A program made the translations under genes and the position numbers. From assembly GCA_016946835.1 (NCBI GenBank), contig JACVTC010000470.1:1-25258 (forward strand): 25,258 bases of DNA. Direction: 5' to 3'. Under the pieces are notes generated by a model. That model made no database searches, had not been told where the DNA came from, and was given only the letters and a program-made list of their open reading frames with translations. Source of the DNA: Neocallimastix lanati (nom. inval.) (taxonomy: Eukaryota > Neocallimastigomycota > Neocallimastigomycetes > Neocallimastigales > Neocallimastigaceae). The stretch's first letter is position 1, and every line of letters begins with the position of its first letter. Positions 3,421 through 25,258 of the stretch are shown here, piece after piece.

Positions 3421-3424
3421 TTTA

Positions 3425-4437: not shown

Positions 4438-4441
4438 TTTA

Positions 4442-4928: not shown

Positions 4929-4959
<31 letters not shown>

Positions 4960-5273: not shown

Positions 5274-5279
5274 TTTATA

Positions 5280-5594: not shown

Positions 5595-5724
5595 GGAAAG
5601 TAGACGAAGGTATTTGGTTACCGATCCGGTAATAATAGTTCAGCCTTCAACGTTTCAACACACGAAGGTGCGGGTACTTTCCAAGCACTGGCGAATAAGG
5701 AGCTTACGTCACCGAAGGCGTAAG
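5595..5724 (+). other. Predicted branched RNA structure in the leader of E
   Basis: This part of the leader is far less AT-rich than its surroundings. An 8-bp stem GGAAAGTA (5595-5602) / TACTTTCC (5675-5682) encloses GAAGG (5606-5610) / CCTTC (5644-5648), which in turn encloses TTACC (5618-5622) / GGTAA (5628-5632) with a 5-nt loop. A separate 6-bp hairpin follows, CTTACG (5703-5708) / CGTAAG (5719-5724). Leaders of LTR elements commonly carry packaging and dimerisation signals. Such a role here is an inference. Confidence 0.5.
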
Positions 5725-6310: not shown

Positions 6311-6542
6311 CAAGTGGTCGATAAAGATTTCGAGCTTGAAAAATATTCTTTTAAGTTGTCGATAAAGATTTCGAACTTAAAATTATTCTATTGAGTTGTC
6401 GATAAAGATTTCGAACTTAAAAATTATTCTATTAAGTTGTCGATAAAGATTTCGAACTTAAAAATTATTCTTAATAAAGTAGTCGAAAAGAACCTCGTGC
6501 TTTGTAATTTCTACTAAGTTGTCGATAAGGATTTCGAGCTTA
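6311..6542 (+). repeat. Six 28-nt hairpin repeats upstream of gag in E
   Basis: Six units lie at 6311-6338, 6352-6379, 6392-6419, 6433-6460, 6476-6503 and 6515-6542, each exactly 28 nt and spaced 39-43 nt apart. Each folds as a 5-bp stem, a 2-nt bulge, a TCGA/TCGA 4-bp stem and an 8-nt loop (usually TAAAGATT). The outermost pair changes in step: C-G in unit 1, T-A in units 2, 4 and 6, T-G wobble in unit 3, A-T in unit 5. The fifth pair alternates between T-A and T-G. That pattern suggests selection for RNA structure rather than simple tandem duplication. The function is unknown; packaging or translational control is possible. Confidence 0.75.
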
Positions 6543-6699
6543 TATCTACTAAAGAAAGCAAATAAAATTATTATTTTCAAAAGTTACTAAAATATATTGT
6601 TTTAAAAATTGATTCGATATTAAATTACCTATTAAATTATATTTTGATAGTTGGATTTCCCAAATTTATTCGTATTTAATCACCTCATATTTAGACAAA

Positions 6700-7605: not shown

Positions 7606-7645
7606 ATGGGAGCAGAAGCACTCCCAATGACAAAACAATAGCTTC
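7593..7645 (+). promoter_or_regulatory. -1 programmed ribosomal frameshift signal of E (heptamer plus pseudoknot)
   Basis: TTTAAAC at 7593-7599 is in the gag frame as T-TTA-AAC, a canonical X-XXY-YYZ slippery site. After an 8-nt spacer comes stem 1, TGGGAG (7607-7612) / CTCCCA (7621-7626). Its loop contains GAAGC (7615-7619), which pairs with GCTTC (7641-7645) to make an H-type pseudoknot with loops of 2, 1 and 14 nt. The pol frame is open from 7569, is -1 relative to gag, and overlaps it up to the gag stop. Element D has the same heptamer, the same 8-nt spacing to its first G-C pair, and the same loop length. Confidence 0.88.
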
Positions 7646-8834
7646 ATTAAATAATTTACAAAATAATACTTTTACTAAGAATACTCCAATTGATAATAAT
7701 TCCTTTAATGAAGAATCTGAAGAATCTGATTTTAGTGACACAACTGAAAGTGAGGATGATATCATTATAAATGCTATAAAAAGAAAAATGAATGATAATA
7801 ACAGCGAAAAAGAAGAAAATAATTCCAAGAAAGAACATAAAAGTTTAAAAGATAATCCACGTCCTTTTGCAACTCCTGCTTTAAGAAAGAAGAAAGAAAA
7901 TGAGCTACATAATAAACCAAATAAAGTTTATAAAAATCAAATACTTCCTTCAATTTTAACTCAACCAAATATTAACAAAGAAAAACAAAAAGAAAAGGAA
8001 TTAAGAAATATGACAAGAGTAAGAGAAAGTAAAGAAGAAAACAACAAATATTCATCAAAAAGAAAGGAAAAAGTTGAATCTGAAGATATACTTGTAATCG
8101 ATAACGAAATAGAAGATCTAGAAATGAATAAAGATAATCAACAAAATAAAACTAATACTTTGGAAAAAATAATTTCAACAAAAACTAAAGAAACTAATAA
8201 TGGAAATACTCAGTTAGTAAAAAGGAATATCAAAATGATGAATAATAAAGAACCTTACAATATTATGGATGATTTAAATAATCTTAAATCCAGTATTACG
8301 ATAGGTCAACTCTTGAATGCATGTCCGAAAATTCGTTCACAATTAACTCAAGGTTTAAAGTTAGAAAAATCTAAAATAATTGGAACTGTAGACAATGTAA
8401 TAGCACGAACTTTATTAGTGAATAACTATGATCATAGCTACATAAGTAAAAGTAATGAAGTAGCCGAAGAAGACTTAGCAATGGTTGATGCAAGTGTTGA
8501 CGGAGTACTAGGAAAACTTTTAATTGATTCTTGTAGTAACCTAAGCATCGTTACTAAGCAGTATTTTGATAAATTACCTGGTGAATATGAAACAGTTGGA
8601 AAAAGTCGTGGAAGAATCCAACTAGCAACACAAGATGAAGAATACTCGGAAGGAATTATTGTTCGATTACCAGTAAAAATTAATAATTATGAATTTAATG
8701 CGGACTTTAGAATTATTGAGAAAGAAGACTCATTTTATGATATGTTAATAAACTTTAAAACTCAAATCGATCATTGTTTATTTATTCATCCAACCTTAAA
8801 CAGTCTATGTAAACTTTTGTCAGAAAGTGAATAA
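7600..8834 (+). pseudogene. pol: Pol N-terminal linker and protease of E
   Basis: This is the first part of Pol, reached by -1 slippage at TTTAAAC. It begins with L-x-N-G-x-R-x-T, conserved in D. A long Lys/Glu/Asn-rich, probably disordered linker runs to about 8280. Then comes LNNLKSSITIGQLLNACPKIR, also matched in D. The aspartic protease has its active site at 8526-8534, reading D-S-C instead of D-S/T-G in LLIDSCSNLSIVT, followed by EDSFYDMLINF near its end. Protease should cut Gag-Pol into its parts. The frame is clean until two adjacent TAA stops at 8832-8837, after which the same frame continues into RT. Those stops would truncate Pol in this copy. Confidence 0.82.
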
Positions 8835-8837
8835 TAA

Positions 8838-9752
8838 GAAATAGCTAAAATAAATAATCAATATTATGATGAAGAAAGTATAATCTGCACTATTAGAAAA
8901 GTTGAAGAAACGAATAATGAAAAGGAAATTATAAAGGAATTAACTCCAATGGAATTTATTGAGAGTGATGAATTTTTAAGTACCTTAAATAAAGATTATA
9001 AAGAACAAATTATTAAAATTCTCAAAGAAATGATTGACATAGTTGCCACTTCAACAGAAGAACTAACTCCTTCTAAACTTTCACCACATAAGATCCGTTT
9101 AAAATCAAATTCAAAGCCAGTAAAATTAAGAAGTTATAGGTTAACTAAATTAAAATCAGATATCTTAAAAGAAGAACTTACAAAACTTATTAAGAAAGGA
9201 TTGATAGAACCATCCTGTTCAGAATGGTCATCTCCAGTAGTGCTCATTCTAAAACCCAATGGAAAGTGGCGTTTGTGCATTGACTACCGAAAAGTCAATG
9301 ATATGACAGAAAAAGATTCTTATTCAATTCCATATATAGATGAAATTTTTGATAGTCTCGGAGGAGCTAAAATATTTACAACTCTTGATTTATTTTCTGG
9401 TTTTCACCAAATCTTAATGGATGAAGAAAGCGTTGAAGTAACCACTTTCACTACTAAGTTTGGAAATTATCAATTTAAGGTTATGCCTTTTGGACTTACT
9501 GGAGCTCCCTCAACCTTCCAAAGAGAAATGAATAAAATTTTATTCCCTTTTATTGGTGAATTTGTTTACGTATTTATTGATGATGTTTTGATCTATTCAA
9601 AAAGTATCGAAGAACATTTAATTCATATTAAACAAGTATTAGAAGTATTTAAAGAAAACAAGTTAAAAATTAATATTGAAAAGTGCCATTTTCTTCAAAC
9701 TGAAGTTGATGTATTAGGCCACAAACTTACTACTACAAAAAAAAAAAAGGAT
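8838..9752 (+). pseudogene. pol: Reverse transcriptase of E
   Basis: This RT is in the same frame as the protease segment, after the double stop. From about 9210 it shows the standard blocks: SSPVVLILKPNGKWRLCIDYRKVN, then TTLDLFSGFHQI with the first catalytic Asp at 9387-9389, KFGNYQFKVMPFGLTGAPSTFQ, and FIDD at 9573-9584 (the YxDD box with Phe in place of Tyr). LGHKL lies near 9720. It copies element RNA into cDNA inside the particle. The frame is lost in a run of A residues at about 9738-9748, where the usual GxxP motif is expected. The GLSP motif continues in another frame, so a homopolymer length change (mutation or sequencing error) split the gene. Confidence 0.88.
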
Positions 9753-10462
9753 TAAGCCCCATGGAAAGCAAAATAACAGCTATTAAGAAGTGGGAAGCCC
9801 CTTCATCACTTCATGAATTAAGATCATTTCTAGGAGCAGTAGGATATTATCGTGACTTTATTCCTAAATATGCTCAAATTACCTCACCTTTATGTAAATT
9901 ATTGAAGAAGAATACTAAATATGAATGGAATAAAGAACAACAAGAAAGCTTTGAACTCCTAAAAGAAAAATTAATCAATGCACCTATTCTAAAATTTCCG
10001 TCATTTGACAAACCTTTTATCATTAGAACTGATGCTTCGTATAATGGAATTGGTGGAGTTCTTTTACAAAAAGAAGAAGAAACCAGTAAGGAGCATCCAA
10101 TACACTTTATAAGTAGAAGTTTGAAGAAAGCTGAAAAGAATTATGGTATCACAGATTTGGAAGGAACCGCTTTGTTTTACTGTATGACTAAATTTAAATC
10201 TTATATTGAAGGAAATCCATTACCTACAACTATTTACACAGATCATAAACCATTAGTTGGTTTATTTAAGAATAAAGAACCTTTGAATGTAAGGCAAACA
10301 AGATGGTGTCTAACCGCTAGTATGTTTGGAATTAATATAAAATATGAATCAGGCAAAAAGAATGTGTTAGCCGATGCTCTTTCAAGAATGAAAAGTAAGG
10401 AAGAGAGAAAGATATTATTAACAAAAATTACTAATGGAAATAATGAAGAATTATTATCTTAA
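9750..10462 (+). pseudogene. pol: RT connection and RNase H of E
   Basis: This is the continuation of Pol after the poly-A frameshift. WEAPSSLHELRSFLGAVGYYRDFIP marks the RT thumb/connection. RNase H follows with its four acidic residues in order: D in RTDAS (10031-10033), E in DLEGTA (10160-10162), D in YTDHKP (10241-10243), D in LADALSR (10373-10375). It removes the RNA strand during cDNA synthesis. An in-frame TAA at 10460-10462 interrupts the chain before the integrase zinc domain, with the same frame open on both sides. The catalytic set is complete, so the break seems recent. Confidence 0.88.
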
Positions 10463-10945
10463 GTTATAAAGGAATTTATTAATGAAAAGTTTACTGTTAT
10501 TGATGGTGAAGATTACTTTATCGACAATGAAAATTATAGAAAATTAATAACGGATGAAAATGAAAAATTTAAATTAATTTTAGAAGCTCATAATATTGGC
10601 CACGAAGGATATTACAAAACATATCAAAGACTTAAGAAAAACTTTTATTGGAATCATATGATTAAAGATATCAAAAGAATTGTTAGTAATTGTGAAAAAT
10701 GCCAGTTAAATCGTCCTCAACCATATCCAGAACCAACCGAAAACCATCCAACTAAAGTGGAGGGTCCCTTTGTGCATTTAGGATTAGATATTATAGGACC
10801 GTTACCAAAAACAAGAAATAATAATCAATATATTATCGTTACAGTTAATTATTTCACTAAATAGGTTGAAGCTGAACCCACCGAGAATATAACTTCCTAT
10901 GATGTAATTAAATTTTTAATAAACGTTTTTGCAAGACATGGTGCC
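10463..10945 (+). pseudogene. pol: Integrase N-terminal part of E
   Basis: It is in the same frame as RNase H, after the TAA. The HHCC zinc domain is visible as AHNIGHEG followed by NCEKCQ. The first catalytic Asp of the integrase core lies in GLDIIGPLP (10787-10789). A TAG at 10862-10864 sits where D has TGG (Trp in TKWVEAEP), a single G-to-A change. The frame then runs on through VEAEPT to about 10945, where a one-base loss shifts it within the sequence encoding ARHGAPQ. Integrase joins cDNA to target DNA and would set the 4-bp target duplications seen around these elements. Confidence 0.85.
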
Positions 10946-11613
10946 TCAAGTTATTACTACTGATAATGAAGTCCAATTCACCTCCGACATGACAAAAATC
11001 TTTCTTGAACTTTATGATGCTTATGTAAAATTCATAGCTACCTATCACCCTGAATCCAATGGTCTCACTGAAAACCGAAATAAAGAAATTGGAAAATTAC
11101 TTCGTTTATTAGGAAGGAAAAATCAAGATTGGGATGAAGTTTTACCTTCTGCTTTATGGGCACTTCGAACTACCAAAAACACAGCTACTGGACATTCTAG
11201 TTTTGAATTAGTATATGGAAGAGAAGACCAACAGCCTTATGATATAGCCATAAGAACAATTGAAAATGCAGGTAAATCGTATGATGAAATTTTAATGGAA
11301 AAATTTGTTCGTCATTATCAATGGACTAGAGAAGCATGCGAAAATGTGAAGAATGCTAACAAGTATTGGGCAACAAGACGAGAAGAACAAATAAGTATGA
11401 AAAAAAGGAAAACAATTAAAGGCTGGTGATCTTGTTCTTGTTAGAAACTTTACCCGCACTAAGCTAGAACCATATTACAATGGACCATTTAAAATTTTAA
11501 AAATTCAATTCAACACGGCAACCCTAATCGATCAGAAAACTGGAAAGCAACTCGATAGGAATGTTCACTTTAAAAATTTAGTAAAGTTTAACTCCGCTTA
11601 CAGAGAAGCTTGA
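10940..11613 (+). pseudogene. pol: Integrase catalytic core and C-terminus of E
   Basis: It resumes after the frameshift at VPQVITTDN. The second catalytic Asp is at 10962-10964 and the Glu at 11070-11072, exactly 35 residues apart, so the D,D(35)E triad is complete. A further frame change occurs at about 11400-11425, within A-rich sequence. The last part reads AGDLVLVRNFTRTKLEPYYNGPFKI, a GPY/F-type module, and ends at TGA 11611-11613. Nothing resembling a chromodomain follows, so target choice would have to come from another integrase surface, as in yeast Ty3. That parallel is an inference. Confidence 0.85.
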
Positions 11614-11617
11614 GTCT

Positions 11618-11631
11618 TCGTCGGGGCATCT
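11618..11631 (+). promoter_or_regulatory. Polypurine-tract region before the 3' LTR of E
   Basis: TCGTCGGGGCATCT directly precedes the 3' LTR start TGATAAG. A short G-rich tract at this place primes plus-strand DNA synthesis in LTR elements. The A-full element has a similar sequence, GTGGGGGCGTCT, at the same place. The match to a pure purine tract is weak, so the exact primer is uncertain. Confidence 0.55.
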
Positions 11632-12117
11632 TGATAAGAATGTACTAAATAATGCATTCTTAATTAAATCTACGATTTATTTCTAATACATTATGTGTAC
11701 ATTATTATTTTTTGTACTTTAATAAATTTTTAAATCCAAAGATTAAAAATTAAATCAAAAATTATATTAAACTTTATATTTTTATATTAAATCTTATATT
11801 AATAGTAATATTTTTATATATTTAAAACTTATATTAGCAATATTAATAATAAATCTTATTTTTTTTTATTTTTATATTAATAATGAAAATTTGTATTAAT
11901 AATATTTTTATATATTGATAATTAAAAATTTATATATTATATTTTAACTTTTATTATAAAATTTTATATCGAAATGTTTTATTTTATATTGAAAAAATAT
12001 TTTATTTTATTAAAAACCTTTATATTAGAATAGTATTTTTATTTTTATTTGAATATTTTAACAGATTGTAATAAAAATTATAGCCAATTAAATAAATTCT
12101 TATTAGTAATATTTTAG

Positions 12118-12165
<48 letters not shown>

Positions 12166-12465
12166 TTTTATTAATATTATAAATGTATTTTATTTATATT
12201 GTTATAATTAAATTTTATATAATTGATTATAAAACTCAATTTAAATTTAATAGTTTTTATAAAAAAAAAAAAATAAATAAAATGTAATTTAGTGGCAAGA
12301 ACAACTTTTATGCCTTGAAAAAAGTATAAATATTTGTAAATTTTGCTACTAATTTTTAAATATCATCAAATAAAATCAAATAAATTTATAAATAAAAATA
12401 ATAAATAAATAAATAAAATTTGTGTTTCTTACTTTATTTTTATTTAATTCTCTAAAACCTTAACA
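11632..12465 (+). repeat. 3' LTR of element E
   Basis: It is 834 bp, starts TGATAAGAATG and ends CTTAACA, followed by TTTA (12466-12469). It carries a pure A run of about 40 bp near 12124-12163, longer than in the 5' LTR. The remaining differences from the 5' LTR are about a dozen scattered changes. Confidence 0.92.
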
Positions 12466-12530
12466 TTTACGATACGGGGTGTCACTAAATACCTTGTATT
12501 TCCTATTAAATACTCTTAATAATAATAAAA

Positions 12531-13925
12531 TAAAATTATTATTAAATATTCTTATTAAAATCTTTTATTAATATTAAATATAATAAAAATTATTATTAAA
12601 TATTCTTATAAATATCTTTTATTAATATTAAATATAATAAAAATTATTATTAAATATTCTTATAAAATTCTTTTATTAATATTAAATATAATAAAAATTA
12701 TTATTAAATATTCTTATAAATTTCTTTTATTAATATTAAATATAATAAAAATTATTATTAAATATTCTTATAAATTTCTTTTATTAATATTAAATATAAT
12801 AAAAATTATTATTAAATATTCTTATTAAAATCTTTTATTAATATCAAATATAATAAAAATTATTATTAAATATTCTTATTAAAATCTTTTATAATAAAAA
12901 TTATTATTAAATATTCTTATAAAATTCTTTTATTAATATCAAATATAATAAAAATTATTATTAAATATTTTAATAAATTTCTTTTATTAATATTAAATAT
13001 AATAAAAATTATTATTAAATATTCTTATAAATTTCTTTTATTAATATTAAATATAATAAAAATTATTATTAAATATTCTTATTAAAATCTTTTATTAATA
13101 TCAAATATAATAAAAATTATTATTAAATATTCTTATTAAAATCTTTTATTAATATCAAATATAATAAAAATTATTATTAAATATTCTTATAAAATTCTTT
13201 TATTAATATTAAATATAATAAAAATTATTATTAAATATTCTTATAAATTTCTTTTATTAATATCAAATATAATAAAAATTATTATTAAATATTCTTATTA
13301 AATATTCTTTTATTAATATCAATTTAATAAAAATTATTATTAAATATTTTTATAAATTTCTTTTATTAATATCAAATATAATAAAAATTATTATTAAATA
13401 TTCTAATAAAAATCTTTTATTAATATCAAATATAATAAAAATTATTATTAAATATTCTTATAAATTTCTTTTATTAATATTAAATATAATAAAAATTATT
13501 ATTAAATATTCTTATAAATTTCTTTTATTAATATTAAATATAATAAAAATTATTATTAAATATTCTTATTAAAATCTTTTATAATAAAAATTATTATTAA
13601 ATATTCTTATAAAATTCTTTTATTAATATCAAATCTAATAAAAATTATTATTAAATATTCTTATTAAAATCTTTTATTAATATCAAATATAATAAAAATT
13701 ATTATTAAATATTCTTATAAAATGCTTTTATTAATATCAAATCTAATAAAAATTATTATTAAATATTCTTATAAAATTCTTTTATTAATATTAAATATAA
13801 TAAAAATTATTATTAAATATTCTTATTAAAATCTTTTATTAATATCAAATCTAATAAAAATAATTATTAAATATTTTATTAATATTAAATATAATAAAAA
13901 TTATTACTAAATATTCTTATTAAAA
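12531..13925. repeat. AT-only minisatellite, about 54-bp unit, roughly 25 copies
   Basis: The repeated unit contains TAAATATTCTTATAAATTTC followed by TTTTATTAATATTAAATATAAT and AAAAATTATTAT. Units come in subtypes (ATAAATTTC, ATTAAAATC or ATAAAATTC in the middle; TATTAAATATA, TATCAAATATA or TATCAAATCTA further on), and the subtypes are interspersed, which suggests repeated unequal exchange or slippage. A few units are shortened. It holds no gene. Confidence 0.9.
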
Positions 13926-14218
13926 ATTATATAATATTTAAATCATTACTAATTCCTATTTTTATATTAAGAATAATAAAAACCTATTTCAATAAATATT
14001 TGATATAAAATACAGAATTATAAGTTTCTGTATAATATTTTCTAAACCTTTGAAATAAACTAAAAATAAATCAAAAATCAAAAATAAATTAAATCTTTAT
14101 TAAAAATAAAAATGAACTAAAATACAGAATTTCAATAATAAAAAAAATGATCTAAAATACAGAAAATATCAATTCTGTATAATTCTCTCTCTGAAAAACA
14201 ATATCAAGAAGAAGCTAC

Positions 14219-14236
14219 CGCCCGGATTCTCCACCA
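14219..14236 (-). promoter_or_regulatory. Primer-binding site of F (inverted copy of that in A-full)
   Basis: On the minus strand it reads TGGTGGAGAATCCGGGCG, identical to 15236-15253 just after the 5' LTR of A-full. Its complement gives T-stem CCCGG, acceptor ATTCTCC, A, CCA. The identity shows that F and A-full use the same tRNA primer and that F was a retroelement. Confidence 0.7.
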
Positions 14237-14244
14237 AATTTTTA

Positions 14245-14474
14245 TGATACGGGCTGGGGTTGAATCACTAAGATATTCAAACCAAAAAAAATTAATATTA
14301 ACACATAACTATAAAAATAAATTTGGGAACAAAAAAATTTTAATTTTAAATTTAAATAAAGAATATTTTAAAATTTAATTTTTTTCTTGTTTCCAAATTT
14401 ATTTTTATAGTTATGCGTTAATATTTATTTTTTTTGTTTTGAATATCTTAGTGTTTCAACCCCAGCCCGTATCA
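14245..14474. repeat. 230-bp foldback (near-perfect palindrome) at the right end of F
   Basis: The two arms (about 14245-14345 and 14375-14474) are inverted copies with only a handful of mismatches. Both ends begin TGATACGGGCTGGGGTTGAA when read inward. TTTA flanks it at 14241-14244 and 14475-14478. The end sequence, ATATCTTAGTG...CAACCCC...TATCA, closely resembles the right end of family B. It may be a palindromic LTR of F or a MITE built by inverted duplication of an LTR end. As RNA it would form a very long hairpin. Confidence 0.8.
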
Positions 14475-14478
14475 TTTA

Positions 14479-14677
14479 GAAATAAATAGTAAAATCTGAA
14501 CAGAAATTGTTATGAAAGTTTACCTAAAAAAACTTAACCCTTCAAATAAATTAACTTTTAAATTTTTACATTTAATTAACCAAAATTTTATTTAGAGATA
14601 AAATAGTCTTTTAATTAAATTATATATATTTTATAAAAAGAAAAAATAAAGACATTTAAGTGATATAAAGTCAAAAA
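14479..14677. other. Short unique spacer downstream of tRNA-Met copy 2
   Basis: It is AT-rich with no gene. The block TTAACCCTTCAAATAAATTA (about 14533-14552) recurs near 1542. The last 15 bp before the tRNA, including the Pol III terminator TTTTT on the minus strand (14673-14677), are the same as at tRNA copy 1. Confidence 0.5.
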
Positions 14678-14750
14678 TGCGAAGTGTGAGGTTCGAACTC
14701 ACGACCTTAAGATTATGAGACTTACGCGCTGCCGACTGCGCCAACTTCGC
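14678..14750 (-). tRNA. tRNA-Met: tRNA-Met (CAT), elongator type, copy 2
   Basis: It is identical over all 73 nt to copy 1 (2191-2263), with intact acceptor, D, anticodon (CAT) and T arms and a TTTTT terminator. Its 5' end is at 14750. Only 11 bp lie between it and the TTGA (14762-14765) where a chain of retroelements begins, so its Pol III start site is almost at the insertion point. Whether the inserted LTR affects its transcription cannot be told. Without the TTTA-chain insertions the two tRNA genes would be about 0.9 kb apart in the same orientation. Confidence 0.95.
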
Positions 14751-14765
14751 TTTCTTGGGTTTTGA

Positions 14766-15231
14766 TGATACGTGACCACTATAAAAATGGTATTTAGGTA
14801 GATTCTTTAGGTTAAAGAAATACTTAAATATTATTGGTCAATAATAATTTTATAATAATATATATAATTTTAGAATAATAATTGTTAAACGGAGAATTCT
14901 TTTATTTATAAGTATATACTTATGATAAATTAATTCACATAAATAGCTATTTTTATATTTTATTTTAGTATAGTTAAAAAGAGATATTATATATATTTGA
15001 GATAATTAATTATAATATTTATATAAGAGAGTAATAATAATAATTTATGTAATAATTAATAATTAATAATAAATAAAGAGAACATTAAAAAGATATATTT
15101 ATTACTTTATTTTGTATTATTGTATGTGTTATTTCTAATTAATATTAGAATATATTATTTTGTCATAATTCCTTATTGTCATTGCCCATAAATAAATATT
15201 AATTTAGATACATAAATAAAATATCGTATCA
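14766..15231 (+). repeat. 5' LTR of A-full (family A)
   Basis: It is 466 bp, TGATACGTGACC to ATCGTATCA. It is preceded by TTGA, 11 bp from the 5' end of tRNA-Met copy 2. By reading it is the same as 17202-17667. Transcription of the LTR runs away from the tRNA gene. Confidence 0.93.
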
Positions 15232-15235
15232 AATT

Positions 15236-15253
15236 TGGTGGAGAATCCGGGCG
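15236..15253 (+). promoter_or_regulatory. Primer-binding site of A-full
   Basis: TGGTGGAGAATCCGGGCG lies 4 nt after the LTR. The complement fits a tRNA 3' end with acceptor GGAGAAT and T stem CCGGG/CCCGG. It is the same as in F and related to, but different from, the site of E. Confidence 0.8.
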
Positions 15254-15467
15254 TGACAATAGCAAAATAATATGAAAATAATATTAATAAAATAATACAT
15301 CTACATAATAAATATATAATAAATATTATTTAGTATATATATAAAAAGAATTTAATTAGTTTAAATTAGTTATTAATAATTATAATAGTAATAGTTATAA
15401 TAATATTAAATTGAATTAGAAAATTGTAATAAAAAATATATATAAAGAATAAATAAAATTTTTAAAG
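15254..15467 (+). other. Leader of A-full
   Basis: About 210 bp of AT-rich leader lie between the primer-binding site and the gag ATG. I see no hairpin array like that of E and no upstream frame of note. Confidence 0.5.
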
Positions 15468-16916
15468 ATGAATGTTTTTAAGATATTAAGTACGTTACCA
15501 TTATTAGAAAATTATAATAATGATATCAATGAATGGATAGAAGAATTAACCGAGTCATTTGAATTATGGGATATAAAAGAACAAGAAAGAAGATTTATTT
15601 TATGTAAAGAATGTGTAAATAAAGAAATTAGGTATGTTCTTGATGAATTAAAGGAAAAAAATAATCAGGTTCCTAGCTTAAAAGAAATAAAAATAGCCTT
15701 AGAAGAATATCTAGAAATAACATCAAGTGTAAAATATTGGAACTTAATTAATTTAAAAATTAATTCAAATGAATCAATTAGTAATTTTAATTATAAATAC
15801 TTAAGAAAATATAATGATATTGATAGTAATATAAAGAAATTAATTACTGTTAATAATTATGTTAATTCAATCAGGTCCAGAATATATCCTTGTTTAAGAA
15901 TATTAGAAGAAGAAATCGAAGATATAAAAGAAGCTATCAAATATGCAGAAAAAGTTGAAAGAATTGAAAAGAAATTAAATTTAAATTTAAATAATATTTA
16001 TAAGAATAATAATCAAAAATGGAATAATAATAATTTCAAAATGAATAAATTAAATAGTAATATAAACAATAAGAATAATAAAATTATGTGCTTTAGATGC
16101 TATGAGTTAGGTCATAAAGCTGTTAATTGTAGACACACATTTAAAGAATTAGCGGAATTAGAAAGAACTGGAATTTTGGAAATAAATAAAAGAAGAAATT
16201 TTATACCTGGAAACCATAATAATTATAATTATAAATTTAATTCATATGATAGAAATAAAAACTATATTAATTATTATCGTAGAAATTATAATTTAAATAG
16301 TAATATTGCTGAAAATCATCATAACATGATTAGTTTTGGTAAAAAGCATAATGGAAATAGAGAAATTTATAGGAATAATTATAATTTAAATAATAATTTT
16401 GGTAATAATAATTATAATAATTTAAATAATTATCTAAATAAAAGTAATTATGATTTAAATAAAAATTTTGGTACCAATAACAATAACAGTAGTTTAAATG
16501 AGAATATGAATACAAAAAAAAATAGAATATACAATAATCATGGTATAAATTATAATATGCAAGGAAATAAAGATGTAAATATTGGAAATGAAATTAATTT
16601 CAACAATAATTTAAATAATAATTGTGTAGAAAATACGTTTAATTCAAATATAGATATTACTCAAGATAATATAATTGGAAATAATATAAATAAAAACAAT
16701 AATGGATATAGTAGAAACATAAATTCAGTAGGAAATAATAGTGGTTTTACTAATAACAATACTAATAACAATGATAATTATACAAATAACGAAAATAAAA
16801 ATGTTAATAATATTAACGAAATGAATTATAATAAAAACAATAATAACAATAACAATAACAATAACAATAATAATAATAAAAATAATAATAATAGAAATAA
16901 AAAAAAAAAAAAATAA
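15468..16916 (+). CDS. gag: Gag of A-full with long Asn-rich tail
   Basis: This intact 482-residue capsid protein starts at the first ATG of the leader. Residues 1-170 match the helical capsid part of D gag, with INEWIEELTESFELW, PSLKEIKIALEEYLEIT and NESISNFNYKYLRKY (compare SIKNFNWRYKKLY in D). A CCHC knuckle, CFRCYELGHKAVNC, is at residues 208-221. It is followed by FKELAELERTGIL, a motif shared with D immediately after its knuckle. From about residue 240 to the end the protein is dominated by Asn with Tyr, Gly and Ser, and finishes in NNN/KKK runs. Such tails can be prion-like or self-assembling in other proteins; a role here is an inference. The gene ends at TAA with no pol frame after it. 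Confidence 0.9.
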   Translation: MNVFKILSTLPLLENYNNDINEWIEELTESFELWDIKEQERRFILCKECVNKEIRYVLDELKEKNNQVPSLKEIKIALEEYLEITSSVKYWNLINLKINSNESISNFNYKYLRKYNDIDSNIKKLITVNNYVNSIRSRIYPCLRILEEEIEDIKEAIKYAEKVERIEKKLNLNLNNIYKNNNQKWNNNNFKMNKLNSNINNKNNKIMCFRCYELGHKAVNCRHTFKELAELERTGILEINKRRNFIPGNHNNYNYKFNSYDRNKNYINYYRRNYNLNSNIAENHHNMISFGKKHNGNREIYRNNYNLNNNFGNNNYNNLNNYLNKSNYDLNKNFGTNNNNSSLNENMNTKKNRIYNNHGINYNMQGNKDVNIGNEINFNNNLNNNCVENTFNSNIDITQDNIIGNNINKNNNGYSRNINSVGNNSGFTNNNTNNNDNYTNNENKNVNNINEMNYNKNNNNNNNNNNNNNNKNNNNRNKKKKK

Positions 16917-17052
16917 ATAAATAATTTAATTATGATGAAGTATTAATAAATAAATAATTATATATATATAACAATAATTTAAATTAAATTAATTCGAAAT
17001 TTCAAGATTTCGAATTTCAAAAATTATAATAATCATTAATTCAAAAATTTAA

Positions 17053-17095
<43 letters not shown>

Positions 17096-17201
17096 CCAAT
17101 AATTAAATTTTAATAAACAAAAAAAAAAAAAAAAAAAAAAAAATTTATTATATTGTTATTGAGACTTCAGGGGACGAAGTCTAATTTAAGTGGGGGCGTC
17201 T
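16917..17201 (+). other. 3' untranslated part of A-full with hairpins, poly-A runs and purine tract
   Basis: A perfect 10-bp hairpin AATTCGAAAT / ATTTCGAATT (16991-17000 / 17007-17016, loop TTCAAG) is followed by two long A runs (about 17060-17086 and 17119-17142). A second hairpin, AGACTTC (17162-17168) / GAAGTCT (17176-17182), precedes the G-rich tract AAGTGGGGGCGTCT (17188-17201) that abuts the 3' LTR and probably primes plus-strand synthesis. Confidence 0.65.
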
Positions 17202-17667
17202 TGATACGTGACCACTATAAAAATGGTATTTAGGTAGATTCTTTAGGTTAAAGAAATACTTAAATATTATTGGTCAATAATAATTTTATAATAATATATA
17301 TAATTTTAGAATAATAATTGTTAAACGGAGAATTCTTTTATTTATAAGTATATACTTATGATAAATTAATTCACATAAATAGCTATTTTTATATTTTATT
17401 TTAGTATAGTTAAAAAGAGATATTATATATATTTGAGATAATTAATTATAATATTTATATAAGAGAGTAATAATAATAATTTATGTAATAATTAATAATT
17501 AATAATAAATAAAGAGAACATTAAAAAGATATATTTATTACTTTATTTTGTATTATTGTATGTGTTATTTCTAATTAATATTAGAATATATTATTTTGTC
17601 ATAATTCCTTATTGTCATTGCCCATAAATAAATATTAATTTAGATACATAAATAAAATATCGTATCA
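17202..17667 (+). repeat. 3' LTR of A-full (family A)
   Basis: It is 466 bp and appears identical to the 5' LTR. It ends CGTATCA and is followed by TTGA (17668-17671), after which LTR C begins at once. Confidence 0.93.
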
Positions 17668-17671
17668 TTGA

Positions 17672-18329
17672 TGATACAATATGAAAAGAAAAATAATGAT
17701 ATTTTAAAATTATTATTAAATTATATTAATTATATAAAGTTTGTAAAATATATATTATTATAAAATTAATTATATAAAAATGATGAATTATTTTAATTAT
17801 AAATCATATAAAATAATATTATTATAGTATAAAATTTAATTATTATAATATAAACTTTTATATTAATGTTTATATAAAATATAACAATTATGATTTAATA
17901 TAGAGATAATAATTATAAAAAAAAAATATATAAAAATATTATAAAAAAAATGTTTTTGTAGAAAAAAAAAAAAAATTATTGATATATGTTAATTAGTAAT
18001 AGTTGATTTAATATAAGAAAAATGTTTTAATTAGTTAAGATAGTAGTTTAGTTATTAGTTTTAATAAAATTAGTTGTTTAAGTAATTAATTGTAGAATAT
18101 TATAATTAAATTATAATTATTAATAGTTAATTAATATGATAAAAATAAAAATAAAATAAAATAAAATAAAATAAAAATAAAATATTACAAAACAAATATC
18201 CTAAAATAAAAATTTTAAATAATTAAATAAAATAATTAATATTATTATTAGAATATATAATTTAGTACAATTCCCCAGTGTAGCGCCCAAAACTATTGTA
18301 AATACGAATATTTAAAATATATCGTATCA
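17672..18329 (+). mobile_element. Solo LTR, family C
   Basis: This 658-bp sequence starts TGATACAATATG and ends ATATATCGTATCA, flanked by TTGA at 17668-17671 and 18330-18333. Its last 70 bp follow the same plan as the end of family A (ATTCC, then GCCCA, then an AT stretch and ATCGTATCA), so the two families are related. A TAAAA microsatellite lies at about 18150-18185. There is no coding region. Confidence 0.75.
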
Positions 18330-18333
18330 TTGA

Positions 18334-19352
18334 CGGTAAAGAATGAATTAATAACCTTTATTTTATTATTAATAATTCTTTACTAAATTGTACTTTCCTA
18401 TATTCTTCATAACCTAAACCTCATTGTAAATTTAATTTATTTTGATATAAATTAATTTTAATTTGTAAATAATGTAAATAAATTTTAATTAATCACTTTA
18501 TTGTTATATTATTAAATATATGTATATATTAAAATACAATTGTAAATATTAAAATTATACTTTTAAGATACTAAATTATTAAAAATATTAATTAAATATT
18601 ATTATAAAAATTATTATAAAATTATTAAAATTATTAATTAAATATTATTCTAAAAATTATTATAAATTATTAATATTATAAAATTATTAAAATTATTAAA
18701 TATTATTATAAAAATTTATATATTATAACTATTAAATATTATTATAAAATTATTAAGATTATTAATTAAATTTATTATTAAAAATTATTATTAAAAATTT
18801 TACTTATTATAAAAATTATTATTTAAATATTATCAAATTTATTAATTAAATATTATAAAAATTTTATTTTATTTTGAAAATAATTACAAGTATTATTTAA
18901 AATAATTAAAGATTATTAAATTTATTATATTAATCTTTAAAAACAATTTATTTAACTTAAAAATATCAAAGAAAATAGTAAAAACTATTTTCTATATATT
19001 TATTTTATAATTATTTTTAATTAAATTATATTTGAATATTATATTATTATATTTATAAAAATTAAAACAAAAATGAATTATTGATATAAAATTAATTCAA
19101 TAATTCTATAAAATTACTTAAATTATAAACAATTAATTATACTTTAAATTTATAAAAAAATATAAATATTGTAACAATTTCTTAAAAAAAATTAAATATG
19201 TGTACTTTAAATATAAAGTTTTATATTAATAAAAAAAATATAAATAACTTTTAATAAAGAAATAATTTTTTTTTATTTAAAATCAAAGCAGGGTAATACC
19301 CGTCCCCCCCTGCTTGATTTTAAATATCTAAGTGTCAACCCCGAGTCTACCA
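18334..19352 (+). mobile_element. LTR-like element family B, copy 2 (B2)
   Basis: This 1019-bp repeat is closely similar to B1 along its whole length, with the same GC island (GCAGGG...CCCTGC) and the same end GAGTCTACCA. Its first base is C instead of T (CGGTAAAG). TTGA flanks it at 18330-18333 and 19353-19356. It is non-coding. Confidence 0.8.
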
Positions 19353-19356
19353 TTGA

Positions 19357-20355
19357 TGGTAAAGAATGAATTAATAATCTTTATTTTATTATTAATAATT
19401 CTTTACTAAATTGTACTTTCCTATATTCTTCATAACCTAAACCTCATTGTAAATTTAATTTATTTTGATATAAATTAATTTACACTTGTAAATAATGTAA
19501 ATAAATTTTAATTAATTACTTTATTGTTATATTATTAAATATATGTATATTAAAATACAATTGTAAATATTAAAATTATACTTTTAAGATACTAAACTAT
19601 TAAAACTATTAATTAAATATTATTATAAAAATTATTATAAAATTATTAAAATTATTAATTAAATATTATTCTAAAAATTATTATAAATTATTAATATTAT
19701 AAAATTATTAAAATTATTAAATATTATTATAAAAATTTATATATTATAACTATTAAATATTATTATAAAATTATTAAGATTATTAATTAAATTTATTATT
19801 AAAAATTATTATTAAAAATTTTTACTTATTATAAAAATTATTATTTAATTATAAAAATTTTATTTTATTTTGAAAATAATTACAAGTATTATTTAAAATA
19901 ATTAAAGATTATTAAATTTATTATATTAATCTTTAAAAACAATTTATTTAACTTAAAAATATCAAAGAAAATAGTAAAAACTATTTTCTATATATTTATT
20001 TTATAATTATTTTTAATTAAATTATATTTGAATATTATATTATTATATTTATAAAAATTAAAACAAAAATGAATTATTGATATAAAATTAATTCAATAAT
20101 TCTATAAAATTATTTAAATTATAAACAATTAATTATACTTTAAATTTATAAAAAAATATAAATATTGTAACAATTTCTTAAAAATTAAATATGTGTACTT
20201 TAAATAAAAAGTTTTATATTAATAAAAAAAAAAATAAATAAATAACTTTTAAAAAAAGAATTTTTTTTTTTTTTTTTATTTAAAATCAAAGCAGGGTAAT
20301 AACCGTCCCCCCCTGCTTGATTTTAAATATCTAAGTGTCAACCCCGAGTCTACCA
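19357..20355 (+). mobile_element. LTR-like element family B, copy 3 (B3)
   Basis: This 999-bp copy of B follows B2 head to tail, with only TTGA between them. It lacks about 20 bp present in B1 and B2 near 19846 and has a T run at about 20261-20278. It ends TCTACCA and is followed by TTGA (20356-20359). The separating TTGA argues for an independent insertion rather than a tandem duplication of B2. Confidence 0.8.
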
Positions 20356-20359
20356 TTGA

Positions 20360-20995
20360 TGATACGGAACTAACTAATAATTCGTATTATACTATTGGAA
20401 ATTATAATTAAGTTTAATAACTTTATGTATTAAATATTTTAAACTATTTTTATAATTCCAAAATTTTATTCTTAATTTAAAATAATTATATAAATTATCA
20501 AATTAAATTGATTAATGACTAATTATTAAAAAATCATTATTTAATTAAATTGATTAATGACTAATTATTAAATAATTATTATCTTATATTAATTAAATTG
20601 TTTTATTATTATATTTAATTATTATTAATATTAAATTGTTTCAAGAATTATATTATCAAAAATATTACCAATAATTTTATTGTTAAATTTTTTAATTTTA
20701 TCATTAATAATATTTGTCATTAAAGATAATATTAATTATATTAGTATTAATATTTTTATTATTAAAATAACTCTTAAAAAATATTATTTATAATCACATG
20801 TAATAATTATACTAATAAGAATTAAAATAATTTAAATTATTATAAAAATTCATGTAGTAAAAAAGTATAAAAGAAAAAGAAAATACTTAATAAAAAATCA
20901 GGTGTTAAAAAAATAAAAAAAACGGAAAGTGAAATTAAATTATTAACTAATATATTATTTTCATTTTTTTTTTTGAAGTTTATTGTGTACCTGCA
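20360..20995 (+). repeat. Probable 5' LTR of D (right boundary uncertain)
   Basis: It starts TGATACGG at the end of the TTGA duplication. The right boundary is a guess placed at ACCTGCA, just before the primer-binding site candidate at 21002. The end does not mirror TGATACG as in family A, and the 3' LTR is not in the window for comparison. The sequence is AT-rich and non-coding. Confidence 0.45.
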
Positions 20996-21001
20996 CCAAA
21001 T

Positions 21002-21017
21002 TGGCGAGCTATGCAGG
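21002..21017 (+). promoter_or_regulatory. Candidate primer-binding site of D
   Basis: TGGCGAGCTATGCAGG is complementary to a plausible tRNA 3' end: T stem CCTGC, acceptor ATAGCTC, discriminator G, CCA. It differs from the sites of E and A-full, so D would use another tRNA. It also forms part of an inverted repeat with CCTGCA at 20990-20995. AT-rich leader without a gene follows to 21140. Confidence 0.5.
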
Positions 21018-21140
21018 ACACAAAGAAAATAATATGAAAAATTAATAATTTAAATGAATATTAAGAAATTTTAATTATAAAAAGAAAAAAATTAATTCTA
21101 TATTAAAAATAATATAATAAAATAAATTAAATTGCCAAGA

Positions 21141-22025
21141 ATGAAAATCTTAGAACTTGAGGAACTACTACCTAGGCTTGATGAAGATGCTAGAGACGTT
21201 GATATCTGGGCCGAAGAATTCACAAGATTAATGAAATTAGCTGGTATTAACAATCCAGCTAGCATTCATACCTGGGCGACTGAATGTGTTGAGGGCAAAC
21301 TCAGGGGAATCTTACAAGATCTGGTGAAAGTCAATGAAGATGAAGAAGAAGAATTTCCTTCTATGAAAAAAATAAAAGAAGCTTTAGAAGAAGCCTTAGA
21401 AATCACTCCACAGGATAAATGTAAAAGATTACAAAGATTAAAAATAAAAAGAGGAGAAAGTATTAAAAATTTTAATTGGCGATATAAAAAACTTTACAAC
21501 AATTTACCAAGACTTTATCAATCTTTCATAACAGTGGAGGATTATACTGAATCCATTTCATACCGACCTTTTGCTAGAGCCCAGGTTATAACTCAAAGAT
21601 GTGTAGATCTCGAGGATGCATTTGAGGAAGCGGAATTAGCCGAAAGAGCCGAAGAGAGGAAAGAAACAAATGAAACTGTAATGTCTACTTTATATACTCG
21701 GGGGGTTTATTCAAACTTTTCTCAATCAAATAGAACTGGGAAACATCCTTTTAGACAATTTTCTGCCAATAATTATATAGAAGTTAACAACCCCAAAAGA
21801 AATACGAGAAGTCGCACTAATGATAAACTCTTAAATAAGAATCCAAAATACGAGACTAACAATACATATAAAAGAACATATAAGTGTTTCAGATGTAACC
21901 AGGAAGGTCATGGTGTCAAGCAATGCCCTTATTCATTTAAGGAATTAGCTGAGTTAGAGGAAAAAGGTCAGATTTCAAAGGAATCTTTAAACTCCCAAAT
22001 GGAAGAAGGAAAACTTCCCTTATAA
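21141..22025 (+). CDS. gag: Gag polyprotein of element D
   Basis: This intact capsid/nucleocapsid gene of 294 residues counts from the ATG at 21141; the frame is open from a TTG nine bases earlier. The N-terminal part has VDIWAEEFTRLMKLAGI. The middle has FPSMKKIKEALEEALEITPQ and GESIKNFNWRYKKLYNN, with counterparts in A-full gag. A CCHC knuckle, CFRCNQEGHGVKQC, is at residues 249-262, followed by SFKELAELEEKGQI. Unlike E gag it has only a short acidic patch. TTTAAAC lies in the gag frame 33 bases before the stop codon at 22023-22025, so normal translation gives Gag and slippage gives Gag-Pol. Confidence 0.9.
   Translation: MKILELEELLPRLDEDARDVDIWAEEFTRLMKLAGINNPASIHTWATECVEGKLRGILQDLVKVNEDEEEEFPSMKKIKEALEEALEITPQDKCKRLQRLKIKRGESIKNFNWRYKKLYNNLPRLYQSFITVEDYTESISYRPFARAQVITQRCVDLEDAFEEAELAERAEERKETNETVMSTLYTRGVYSNFSQSNRTGKHPFRQFSANNYIEVNNPKRNTRSRTNDKLLNKNPKYETNNTYKRTYKCFRCNQEGHGVKQCPYSFKELAELEEKGQISKESLNSQMEEGKLPL
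21986..22018 (+). promoter_or_regulatory. -1 ribosomal frameshift signal of D
   Basis: TTTAAAC (21986-21992) sits in the gag frame as T-TTA-AAC. After an 8-nt spacer comes a stem GGAAG (22001-22005) / CTTCC (22014-22018) with an 8-nt loop, the same geometry as stem 1 of E. I do not find a clear second stem, so it may act as a simple hairpin. Pol is in the -1 frame and its first residues match those of E. Confidence 0.8.
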
Positions 22026-22690
22026 AAACCATAAATGATACTGAAACTGATGATATCGTAGCAGCTGTCACTAGGCAAACAAGACAATTAAATACAAAAA
22101 AGAAACCTTACGATAAACATCAGAAAATAGCCACATTAAAAGAAAATCCTCAACCAATAAAAATGCTTTCGAAATCACAAACAAATGATCGAAAAATGGA
22201 AGTAGAAGTAGAAAATATTAATAATGAACCAAAAAGTAACAATGAAGAAGAACCCTTAAATAACTCAAAAAATAGAGAAGAAACGGAAACCTTAAAAGAA
22301 ATTGACTTGTCTGTGATTGCCAACCCATCAATAAACAAAGCAAAAAGGGATTCAAAGAAGGAAAGAATATCAGAAATAATGGATAAGAAACCCGAAGAAG
22401 AAGAAATGAGAAAAAAGGTTACAGCTAAACTACCCAGTACTCAAATGGAAGAAAAGAAGAATAAATGCGAAAGATTAAAAAATGATAAAAATAAAGAAGA
22501 AATGAGAATCGAAAATAATAATGAAGAGAATCCAAATAACAAAAAGGAGAAGCACATTATTCTAATGGAAAACCAAGCAAAGTACGATCTTGTAACTGAT
22601 TTAACATCTACCACAGCTAATATAACTCTGGCTCAATTGTTGGATATAAGTCCAAAATTGCGAGCTCAACTTAATAAATTGTTAAGCTAA
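21993..22690 (+). pseudogene. pol: Pol N-terminal linker of D
   Basis: This -1 frame product starts L-x-N-G-x-R-x-T-x3-K-T-I, the same pattern as E. A Lys/Glu/Asn-rich linker follows, probably disordered, then LTSTTANITLAQLLDISPKLRAQ, matching the pre-protease block of E. The frame hits TAA at 22688-22690, but the protease continues in the next frame from about 22684, so a single-base change has split it. Confidence 0.78.
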
Positions 22691-23017
22691 AAGAAACACC
22701 TCATAACGGAAAAATGGAAGAAATGGTATTATCTACTGTCTCAAGGAAGGATATAGCTACTACTAAATGTAAAATTAACGGAGAAGATGGATTCGCCTTT
22801 TTAGATACATGTGCAAGCATTAACATAATAACGAGTAAGTTTTTAGGCAAGTTGAAAAAATATAAAACCATTTGGTTATACAACTAACAATATTATACAG
22901 GTAACTTCGAAGACCCACATATCCTCTGAATTATATCATTTAACAGTTGAATTCAACGATTTCATTATTCAAGACGTATTTAGAGTAATAGAACATGATC
23001 AGGATCTGTTTGATATC
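22684..23017 (+). pseudogene. pol: Protease of D, split by two compensating frameshifts
   Basis: Bases 22684 to about 22864 are read in one frame and give the retropepsin core FLDTCASINIIT. The active site is D-T-C (22804-22812), not D-T-G, as in E where it is D-S-C. From about 22865 the original pol frame returns and gives SSELYHLTVEFNDFI and DLFDILIGFRT, the protease C-terminal part. The two indels cancel, and the protein on both sides is well conserved, so sequencing error is as likely as decay. Confidence 0.75.
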
Positions 23018-24119
23018 TTGATAGGTTTCAGGACCTTAAAGGATAATAATTTATTCATTAATCCTATTCGTAATAGTCTATGTAAAATGAAGAAAGATGG
23101 TACATTTACAACAATCTCAGCTTTAGAAATAGATGAAGAAGAAAAAGAAATAGATGAAGAAGTAAAAATTGAAGAAACTGAAATGCAAGATAATCCAGAT
23201 TCCATGTTATTTTGTTTCATAAACAAAGAATCATCAGAAATACAGAATGCAATTACGATTAAGGAAAATAAAAAAGACAAAGAAGAAAATACAATCATTG
23301 AAGAAAAGAAGACAAGAATTGAACAAATTATAAAAAATACAATAGAAGTAGTTAGAGGCCGATTCAAGGAACTATTAAAAGATAATATTGAAATCTTAGC
23401 AATAAAAATAGATGAATTAGGTTCAACAAAGTTATTACCGCACCATATCAGTTTAGAAGAAAATACGATTCCAATCAAACAAAAAGCTTATCGATTATCT
23501 AAAGTACAAGCAGACGCCCTGAAGGAAGAGCTAATTAAATTACTGAACAACCATTTAATTGAACCATCCAGTTCACCATGGTCTTCTCCAGTTATTCTTG
23601 TAAGGAAGAAGAATAATAAATGGAGAATGTGTATAGATTTTCGGAAGCTCAACAACGTTACTATTAAAGACGCTTATTCTCTGCCACTAATAGATGATAT
23701 ACTTTTCTCAATCGGAAAGAAAGTTAAAGTATTTTCAACAATAGATTTATTCTCCGGCTTTTATCAAATTCCAATGTTCCATGAAGACATTCCCAAAACA
23801 AGTTTTACAACAATGTACGGTAATTACCAATTCCGGGTAATGCCGTTTGGTTTATGCAATGCCCCAGGAACCTTCCAGAGAGAGATGAACAGGATATTTT
23901 TTCCGCTCATTGGGAAGTGTATGTTTATATATATCGATGATTTAATCATATTCTCTCCAACTTTTGAACAACACATAGAAGATTTAAAGAAAGTATTTGA
24001 TATCCTAAAGGATAATGGATTAAAAATCAATCTCGACAAATGTGATTTTTTCAAGGAATCAGTTGAATTATTAGGCCACACAGTATCAATTGAAGGAATA
24101 TCACCAATTAATAAAAAAT
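23018..24119 (+). pseudogene. pol: Reverse transcriptase of D
   Basis: The long open stretch begins with an acidic linker and reaches RT at about 23500. Blocks in order: SSPWSSPVILVRKKNNKWRM, CIDFRKLNNVTIKDAYSLP, STIDLFSGFYQIPM (first Asp), NYQFRVMPFGLCNAPGTFQREMN, and YIDD at 23930-23941 (both catalytic Asp present). Then come LKINLDKCDFF and LGHTVSIEGISPINKK. The frame is lost in the A-rich codons at about 24110-24119 and continues in another frame. All residues needed for catalysis are visible. Confidence 0.88.
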
Positions 24120-24775
24120 TGAGATTATACGTGAATGGTTACCTCCTACCAACATCACGCAATTACAATCATTTCTTGGAGCAGTAGGTTATTATAGGAA
24201 GTTTATATACAACTTTGCAACAATTGCCAAACCTCTATTTAAACTACTTAAAAAGAATGTAAAATTCTCTTGGGAAGCTGTTCAACAAGAGAGCTTTGAA
24301 GAACTTAAACGAAGATTAATCACAGCCCCTATTTTATCAATGCCTGATTTCGACAAACAATTTATAATCAGGACAGATGCCTCAAAAGATGGAATAGGTG
24401 GAGTCCTGATACAAAAAGATGAAAATAATATCGAAAAACCAATACATTATATGAGCAGAACTTTGAAACCAGCTGAAGTAAACTATGGGATTACAGATTA
24501 GAAGGAGCTGCCGCCGCTTTTTGTGTTAAAAAAATTTAAATCCTATATTTCGGGAAGTAAATTCGAAATATTGTTGTTCACAGATCACAAACCATTAATA
24601 AGTATATTCAAAAGTAAAGAAACCTTAAATGCCAGACAGTCAAGATGGGTAATTATGTTCTCTATGTTAAAAGTTAAAGTCATTTACGAACCAGGAAAAA
24701 CGTAATGTATTAGCGGATGCGTTATCTCGACTTAGATCAAAACCATCGGAAGTAATAGCTACCTATTTAGAAGAA
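24115..24775 (+). pseudogene. pol: RT connection and RNase H of D
   Basis: It continues with REWLPPTNITQLQSFLGAVGYYRKF. RNase H motifs follow: RTDAS, the D(L)EGAA position, FTDHKP and LADALSR. One-base shifts occur near 24498 (a base missing in the codon before EGAA), near 24530 (an extra A in an A run) and near 24700 (before NVLADA). Between the shifts the protein matches E closely and no stop is caused by a substitution. Confidence 0.8.
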
Positions 24776-25258
24776 ATTAATACAGGAAAAAATTCGTTAT
24801 TAAAGAAGTTTGAAGAAAAATTTTCAAGAATAAACAATGAAGAATATTTTATAGATGGAGGCACATTCAGAAAAGTAATTAAAGAAGATAAAGAAAAAAT
24901 TAAACTATTATTAGAAGCCCATAGGATAGGCCATGAGGGAATCTTCAAAACGTATAACAGGCTCAAACGTGATTACTATTGGAATAACATGGTCTTGGAT
25001 GTAAAATACATAGTCAATACGTGTAAACACTGCCAACTGTTCAAACCACAAACTTTCAATTCAAACACCGAACACATCCCAACAAAGCCGGGATTACCTT
25101 TTACCCAGGTAGGACTGATATAGTAGGCCCTTTACCACAAACAAAAAATGGAAATCAGTATATCCTAGTATTAGTCGATTATTTAACAAAGTGGGTTGAA
25201 GCTGAACCCACTGTCAAGATTGAATCTGATGATATAATAGGCTTCTTAACAAGAGTTT
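24776..25258 (+). pseudogene. pol: Integrase N-terminal part of D (partial, cut by window edge)
   Basis: The zinc domain is present as EAHRIGHEG and NTCKHCQ. The start of the catalytic core shows GL(D)IVGPLP, where one base is missing in GLD (about 25117), then DYLTKWVEAEPT with the Trp codon that is a stop in E. The remaining catalytic Asp and Glu lie beyond the window. Its target preference could not be read here. Confidence 0.8.

Follow-up and report, generated by a model that had tools for sequence, protein, structure and literature searches.

How retroelements of several families come to lie end to end immediately upstream of a tRNA gene, each bordered by the same four bases, is the question raised by a 25,258-bp contig of the gut fungus Neocallimastix lanati (JACVTC010000470.1, here C413), one of 762 contigs in a 199-Mb genome assembly. 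We refer to this whole stretch as the window, and coordinates without a contig prefix are window positions. Two tRNA-Met genes in the window each carry a stack of long terminal repeat (LTR) retrotransposons and solo LTRs. The evidence set out below makes it very probable that several Ty3/gypsy families integrate at the start regions of genes transcribed by RNA polymerase III (Pol III), at a position like that used by Ty3, generating 4-bp target duplications and building stacks that combine multiple families.

The stack that raised the question stands at a tRNA-Met (CAT) gene called by ARAGORN on the minus strand (14678-14750). Eleven bp from the tRNA 5′ end is the first copy of TTGA (14762-14765), followed by element A (plus strand, 14766-17667, 2902 bp, with LTRs at 14766-15231 and 17202-17667), TTGA (17668-17671), the solo LTR of element C (17672-18329, TGATAC..GTATCA), TTGA (18330-18333), the solo LTR B2 (plus strand, 18334-19352, CGGTAAAG..TACCA, with its first base mutated, C for T), TTGA (19353-19356), the solo LTR B3 (plus strand, 19357-20355, TGGTAAAG..TACCA), TTGA (20356-20359), and element D (plus strand, 20360-25258, 5′ LTR at 20360-20998), a Ty3/gypsy element that runs past the window end. 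A first-pass annotation, made from the sequence by a model, had given this order with its five TTGA copies, which proved exact to the base. The far end of D is present on contigs C594 and C268, where a 3′ LTR closing in CACCA is followed by a sixth TTGA (near C594:12141 and C268:971090, beyond the window) and then by AGAATAAATAATAAAATCTGAACAG. An unoccupied tRNA-Met paralog (locus L004) consists of the tRNA, TTTCTCGGATT (11 bp), TTGA and AGAATAAATAGTAAAATCTGAACAG, i.e., the same TTGA at the same distance and the same native flank as beyond D; other unoccupied tRNA-Met paralogs have this flank with base changes. Because the sixth TTGA leads into a native flank matching that of the empty paralog, the stack as a whole was inserted at a single 4-bp target located 11 bp from the tRNA.

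One further insertion into this stack can be ordered directly. Across the corresponding stretches compared, C413, C594 and C268 differ by insertions and deletions only, with no substitutions. On C268 alone, a reversed copy of element E (C268:951203-959233) lies between the stack's tRNA-Met and A, with TTTG on both sides and LTRs that differ by one insertion or deletion and by 0/853 substitutions. A is present without this extra E on C413 and C594; the extra E is therefore younger, and it is the copy adjacent to the tRNA. The first-pass annotation had held that each insertion lands closest to the gene. That is shown directly once, by this copy, but not as a general order; gene-proximal insertion as a general rule is plausible.

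The same spacing recurs at other tRNA genes. LTR queries of families A, E, D and B returned 835, 1163, 2455 and 616 first-look candidates (unconfirmed copies), 40 of which were scored for each. We examined the 30 best-ranked A and 30 best-ranked E loci together with 20 D flanks, the latter being chosen among the scored hits as apparent 5′ ends aligned from the first or second base of the query; in choosing them we set aside the D copy of the TTGA stack, split matches (C22, C257), matches with a partial start and apparent 3′ LTRs. After exclusion of ends that were the 3′ LTR of a full copy (10 A, 16 E, 5 D), 20 A, 15 E and 15 D remained, giving 50 5′ ends that include a few duplicates on haplotype-like contigs. 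A tRNA 5′ end called by ARAGORN was located 14-17 bp away in 13 of the 50 (10 of 44 without duplicates), so that integration at predicted tRNA start regions is a recurrent feature of the sampled copies. Were all 9278 first-look tRNA candidates in the genome (63 of them scored) real, 0.005 of 50 5′ ends would be expected near a tRNA. The tRNAs concerned have nine called identities: Met, Val and Asn (A); Thr, Trp and Ser (E); and Cys, Glu, Met and Ile (D), although the Ile call at L106 resembles, by eye, an altered copy of the L105 Met gene. Approached from the tRNA side, a recognised LTR end is present at a distance of 12-17 bp in 12 of 36 distinct 5′ flanks, with one gene contributing three of these in different forms; flanks shorter than 30 bp, including those of the four D tRNAs, were dropped from this count, and its loci had been fetched via tRNA-Met or LTR matches and not at random. 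In addition, L059 has a C-like start at 16 bp from a tRNA-Arg, and in L026 the type of end found in element F of the second stack is 12 bp away from a tRNA called as Ile. Given the empty paralog and the LTRs at 14-17 bp in the sample, the arrangement at the window tRNA is not a matter of chance.

Most of the remaining sampled ends fall into two classes. Eight (L042, L043, L046, L052, L070, L071, L074 and L082, with L046 and L071 being duplicates) adjoin flanks in which motifs resembling the A and B boxes are spaced much as in a tRNA gene. In a test of six flank sequences against box consensus sequences, 4, 22, 6, 48, 0 and 19 of 2000 base shuffles were equally good, the flanks having been chosen after inspection. 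The larger class, 28 of 50, lies at the apparent end of another element, marked by CA plus 3-5 bp in all but L092, and at least 21 of these 28 flanks recur elsewhere in the fetched DNA at ≥90% over ≥60 bases.

The target duplications point to the same process. The left and right 4 bp agree in 9/9 A pairs (7 distinct insertions) and in 6/7 E pairs, the odd pair being AAGC/TAGC, which substantiates the 4-bp duplications that the first-pass annotation had read in the TTGA stack. Their sequences vary and include TTGA, TTTA, TTTT, TTTG, TATC, AAAA, ACTC and ATTT. A genome-wide search for the junction pattern GTATCA-N(0-12)-TGATACG gave 151 and 148 matches on the two strands, and 102 and 109 for the reversed control. 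Among 63 unique places in 100 of the 299 matches, the spacing is 4 bp in 45, 3 bp in 8, 5 bp in 4 and another value in 6. Repeated integration at one upstream site, as first proposed for this locus, is thus backed by the same spacing at other tRNAs, the 4-bp duplications, the empty paralog and the 4-bp peak in junction spacing. The right flanks of the insertions in L056, L069 and L081 all start with TTTT-TAAGATTCGTTACA and then diverge.

Orientation is also uneven. For A and E together, 9 of 35 5′ ends face a tRNA compared with 0 of 35 3′ ends (P = 0.002), or 6 of 29 compared with 0 of 31 when duplicates are removed (P = 0.009); for D, 5′ ends alone were sampled. A and E elements mostly point away from the tRNA gene, the exception being the reversed E on C268.

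Since more than half of the sampled 5′ ends (28 of 50) adjoin what looks like the end of another element, and many of the duplications are T-rich, the elements might be thought to aim at other LTR ends or at short AT-rich sequence (TTTA/TTGA), some such sites being beside tRNAs by chance. However, at 13 of the 50 the tRNA 5′ flank is bare, no older element separating the gene from the LTR, the sequences of the duplications vary, and the new E on C268 was inserted on the tRNA side of the stack. We consider an aim of this kind very unlikely.

Could the pattern instead reflect what survives? Insertion could be widespread, with copies persisting near tRNAs and inside old elements as safe havens; the sampled copies are, after all, what remains, and AT-rich, gene-free DNA and tRNA neighbourhoods may both be tolerated. 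However, even copies whose LTRs differ by 0 or 1 substitution are found at tRNAs or in stacks, and the extra E on C268, which has no LTR substitution, occupies the same position. Moreover, base-pair precision, i.e., the fixed 14-17 bp position and the 4-bp junctions, is not explained by selection. Survivorship is thus a very improbable source of the pattern.

A second stack, absent from the first-pass annotation, is located at the other tRNA-Met (CAT) gene of the window (2191-2263, minus strand, called by ARAGORN). Its order is tRNA, 10 bp, TTTT, F, TTTT, followed by A, B, E and G with TTTA between them. Element F (2278-2949, TGGCAAAT..TTTATCA) resembles a solo LTR and lies between TTTT at 2274-2277 and TTTT at 2950-2953. 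A is a solo LTR (plus strand, 2955-3420) with TTTA on both sides (2951-2954 and 3421-3424), and it differs from the A LTR of the TTGA stack at 6/466 positions. The solo LTR of B (plus strand, 3425-4437) and TTTA (4438-4441) precede the Ty3/gypsy element E (plus strand, 4442-12465), which has both LTRs (4442-5273 and 11632-12465, with differences at 12/819 compared sites) and a pol frame in pieces. Element G (12470-14474, CGATACGG..GTATCA), between TTTA at 12466-12469 and TTTA at 14475-14478, contains a 54-bp minisatellite of about 25 units (12516-13885) within 1-kb windows of 5-9% guanine plus cytosine. Its right LTR-like end (14246-14474) itself forms an inverted repeat with 94-nt arms that are 94% complementary, beside a reversed primer-binding-site-like sequence. 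The last TTTA is followed by a native flank (14479-14560), found directly behind the tRNA in unoccupied paralogs, and then by the next tRNA-Met. Thus, the two window tRNA-Met genes appear to be adjacent members of a repeated tRNA-Met cluster. TTTT and TTTA are offset by 1 bp; this offset was considered as a marker of insertion order and rejected, as either order yields the same sequence.

Clusters of tRNA-Met genes, many of them unoccupied, are present at C555:460304-467049, with at least 7 matches spaced 0.8-1.7 kb apart, and at C268:873440-951202; in the tRNA family search, 31 of the 63 scored matches tie at the top score, on C555. Near a native tRNA-type flank in the window, a minus-strand open reading frame (ORF) at 928-1500 encodes 190 amino acids that appear gag-like by eye and have no Pfam match.

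An origin of the stacks in recombination, segmental duplication or assembly artefact has the least to recommend it and is hardly credible: the tRNA-Met genes are clustered and repeated, repeats invite misassembly, and C413 and C594 are short contigs duplicating part of C268, but each stack has its own duplication, carried to the last element with native flank beyond, the three contigs agree at the common junctions read, and the N. lanati genome, as published, was assembled from long PacBio reads (200 Mb, 62x depth; PMC8561657). Tandem duplication of a single element was rejected because the families differ; carriage of the tRNA by the elements, because the tRNA and its 10-13 bp leader are outside the duplications and an empty site exists; and a fixed target sequence, because the duplications vary.

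From their predicted proteins, E and D are Ty3/gypsy (Metaviridae) LTR retrotransposons, with reverse transcriptase (RT) of that type. RVT_1 was found in both elements, as was the integrase zinc domain. E has the Ty3/gypsy order of RT (8949-9755), RNase H (9761-10462) and integrase pieces (10463-11613, with the zinc domain at 10463-10864), together with TG..CA LTR ends, and the best PDB match of its RT piece is the Ty3 RT (4ol8, E 4.8e-48). In D, a gag ORF (21132-22025) is followed by RT (23018-24187) and by RNase H and integrase zinc-domain pieces onward to the window end. The integrase tail piece of E (11401-11613, 70 amino acids) contains NGPF, read by eye and comparable to the GPF motif described in PMC5006619. 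No chromodomain family was matched by this tail; its sole match, to MLVIN_C, was weak and below the cut-off. Element A has a gag-like ORF (15468-16916) with a CCHC knuckle recognised by eye and no pol among its ORFs of ≥100 amino acids, so it is probably non-autonomous; it is provisionally filed under Ty3/gypsy by LTR structure and a primer-binding-like site alone. The end of a B element in L052 likewise continues into a primer-binding-site-like sequence. Two such sequences, TGGTGGAGAATCCGGG and TGGTGGAGATATCGGGG, are common to different LTR families (15232-15260 and 5274-5300; L028, L052 and L053).

Relatives of the D gag were found in Neocallimastix californiae, N. lanati, N. sp. 'constans', Piromyces, the Orpsp1 set, which we take to be Orpinomyces, and one contig binned to a Methanosphaera metagenome-assembled genome (L111, SUTQ01000043.1). 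The relative on this last contig has 50% identity, and the contig, on which no tRNA was called, is probably a misbinned fragment of a gut fungus. It was the only hit to these elements in a genomic contig collection, and a viral contig collection contained no relatives.

How, then, could such stacks arise? The position of the insertions, their precision and their spread over many tRNA identities fit an integrase that would be guided by the Pol III complex at the start site. By analogy with Ty3, the guide may be bound TFIIIB/TFIIIC or Pol III itself. The integrase would cut the two strands 4 bp apart, some 10-13 bp before the 5′ end of the mature tRNA, so that the LTR begins at a distance of 14-17 bp. 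As neither the tRNA nor the short leader before it is disrupted, the site would be usable again. Each later element would enter on the gene side of its predecessor and use the same 4 bp once more, at times displaced by one; we infer that such gene-side wedging is the general order. Recombination between LTRs would then leave solo LTRs, yielding a stack. More tentatively, it is possible that many Ty3/gypsy families have a genome-wide landing site in common, formed by Pol III promoters and, among these, by numerous orphan tRNA-like loci missed by tRNA finders.

Several observations weigh against this reading of Pol III-directed integration. (i) In the PDB, the integrase zinc-domain piece of E matches the integrase of prototype foamy virus (6.7e-12) above that of Ty3 (1e-4). 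(ii) The flank sample consists only of best-scoring and hence mostly young copies, and of three families (A, E and D). (iii) ARAGORN called no tRNA in the tRNA-like flanks, and Rfam found none in the five such flanks given to it; across nine loci, Rfam returned just two ordinary tRNAs, both in L059. (iv) Seven of the 28 element-end flanks (L053, L054, L068, L093, L094, L100 and L101) are without a strong repeat match in the fetched DNA, one of the 50 5′ ends (the D flank L108) fits no class, and L092 is irregular. (v) On C187 (L037/L038), an A copy is stacked on an E end with TTTA on both sides, and the DNA to its right comes from inside a B LTR, close to position 46, so that this copy is at neither a junction nor a tRNA. 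(vi) The total for the junction pattern is only modestly above that of the reversed control, the two being compared by total count. (vii) The LTRs of D are identical (0/638, C413 5′ LTR versus the 3′ LTR on C594 and C268), though D is farthest from the tRNA, so that LTR age does not increase with distance along this stack, and over all 16 LTR pairs the age trend is weak (P = 0.095).

This last point qualifies the time order that the first-pass annotation had considered readable from the stack. Family E alone has a gradient: its copies at tRNA or tRNA-like sites have 0, 0, 0 and 0 LTR substitutions (two contigs sharing a tRNA-Ser flank were counted once) and those elsewhere have 1, 2, 2 and 12 (4 versus 4 copies, one-sided P = 0.014). 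Family A shows no difference in LTR age by site. The two 466-bp LTRs of A in the TTGA stack are indeed identical (0/466), as had been observed, but this identity was rejected as proof that A is the youngest insertion because the LTRs of D are identical too. An age gradient in the TTGA stack is thus not established.

The target duplication of Ty3 in Saccharomyces cerevisiae is 5 bp. The elements described here resemble Ty3 in their RT, to which the E piece gave its best PDB match, but they differ in having a 4-bp duplication, in the stacking of several families at one site and in residing in a 199-Mb, non-compact genome. DGLT-A of dictyostelids is a Ty3/gypsy element whose copies in D. discoideum precede tRNA genes by 13-33 bp and whose integrase in that species has a short extension without a chromodomain; a table note states that several elements may occupy one tRNA gene (PMC5006619). 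The E integrase tail, in which no chromodomain was called, is similar in this respect (the D tail is beyond the window). In contrast, DGLT-A is from another host lineage, and no family in the table of PMC5006619 exceeds 32 copies, versus 616-2455 unconfirmed candidates per LTR query here; the likeness is one of features. Tj1 of Schizosaccharomyces japonicus, a gypsy-type element, inserts 5-11 bp upstream of tRNA genes and also at 5S genes, with a 5-bp duplication, and where it has inserted at a Pol III gene it runs in the same direction as that gene (PMC4600332). Here, the duplication is 4 bp, and it is the 5′ LTR that faces the tRNA, except in the reversed E of C268.

Tying Ty3/gypsy integration to tRNA genes is thus already known from yeasts and amoebae, as is reuse of one tRNA gene in amoebae (PMC5006619). 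Within the available portions of the literature on gut-fungus retrotransposons and tRNA genes, we found no account of such targeting, although prior publication is still possible. As far as this literature goes, the new aspects are the gut-fungus lineage, the 4-bp duplication, the sharing of a site by several high-copy families in a large genome, and the frequency of stacks.

In print, the targeting of tRNA genes has been linked with genome compactness, as in yeasts and amoebae (PMC5006619, PMC5911963). The gut-fungus case combines a 199-Mb genome, several families, near base-pair precision and one insertion so recent that it is present on one contig and absent from two that otherwise show no substitutions, and targeting, site reuse and insertion order thereby become directly testable from sequence. 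The stacks may also point to unannotated Pol III loci. If Pol III promoters are indeed a common landing site across the genome, tRNA targeting would be more than an adaptation to genome compactness, cryptic Pol III genes would be revealed wherever a stack is the only mark of a locus, and the stacks would constitute an in vivo record of past Pol III factor binding, accumulated over many insertions.

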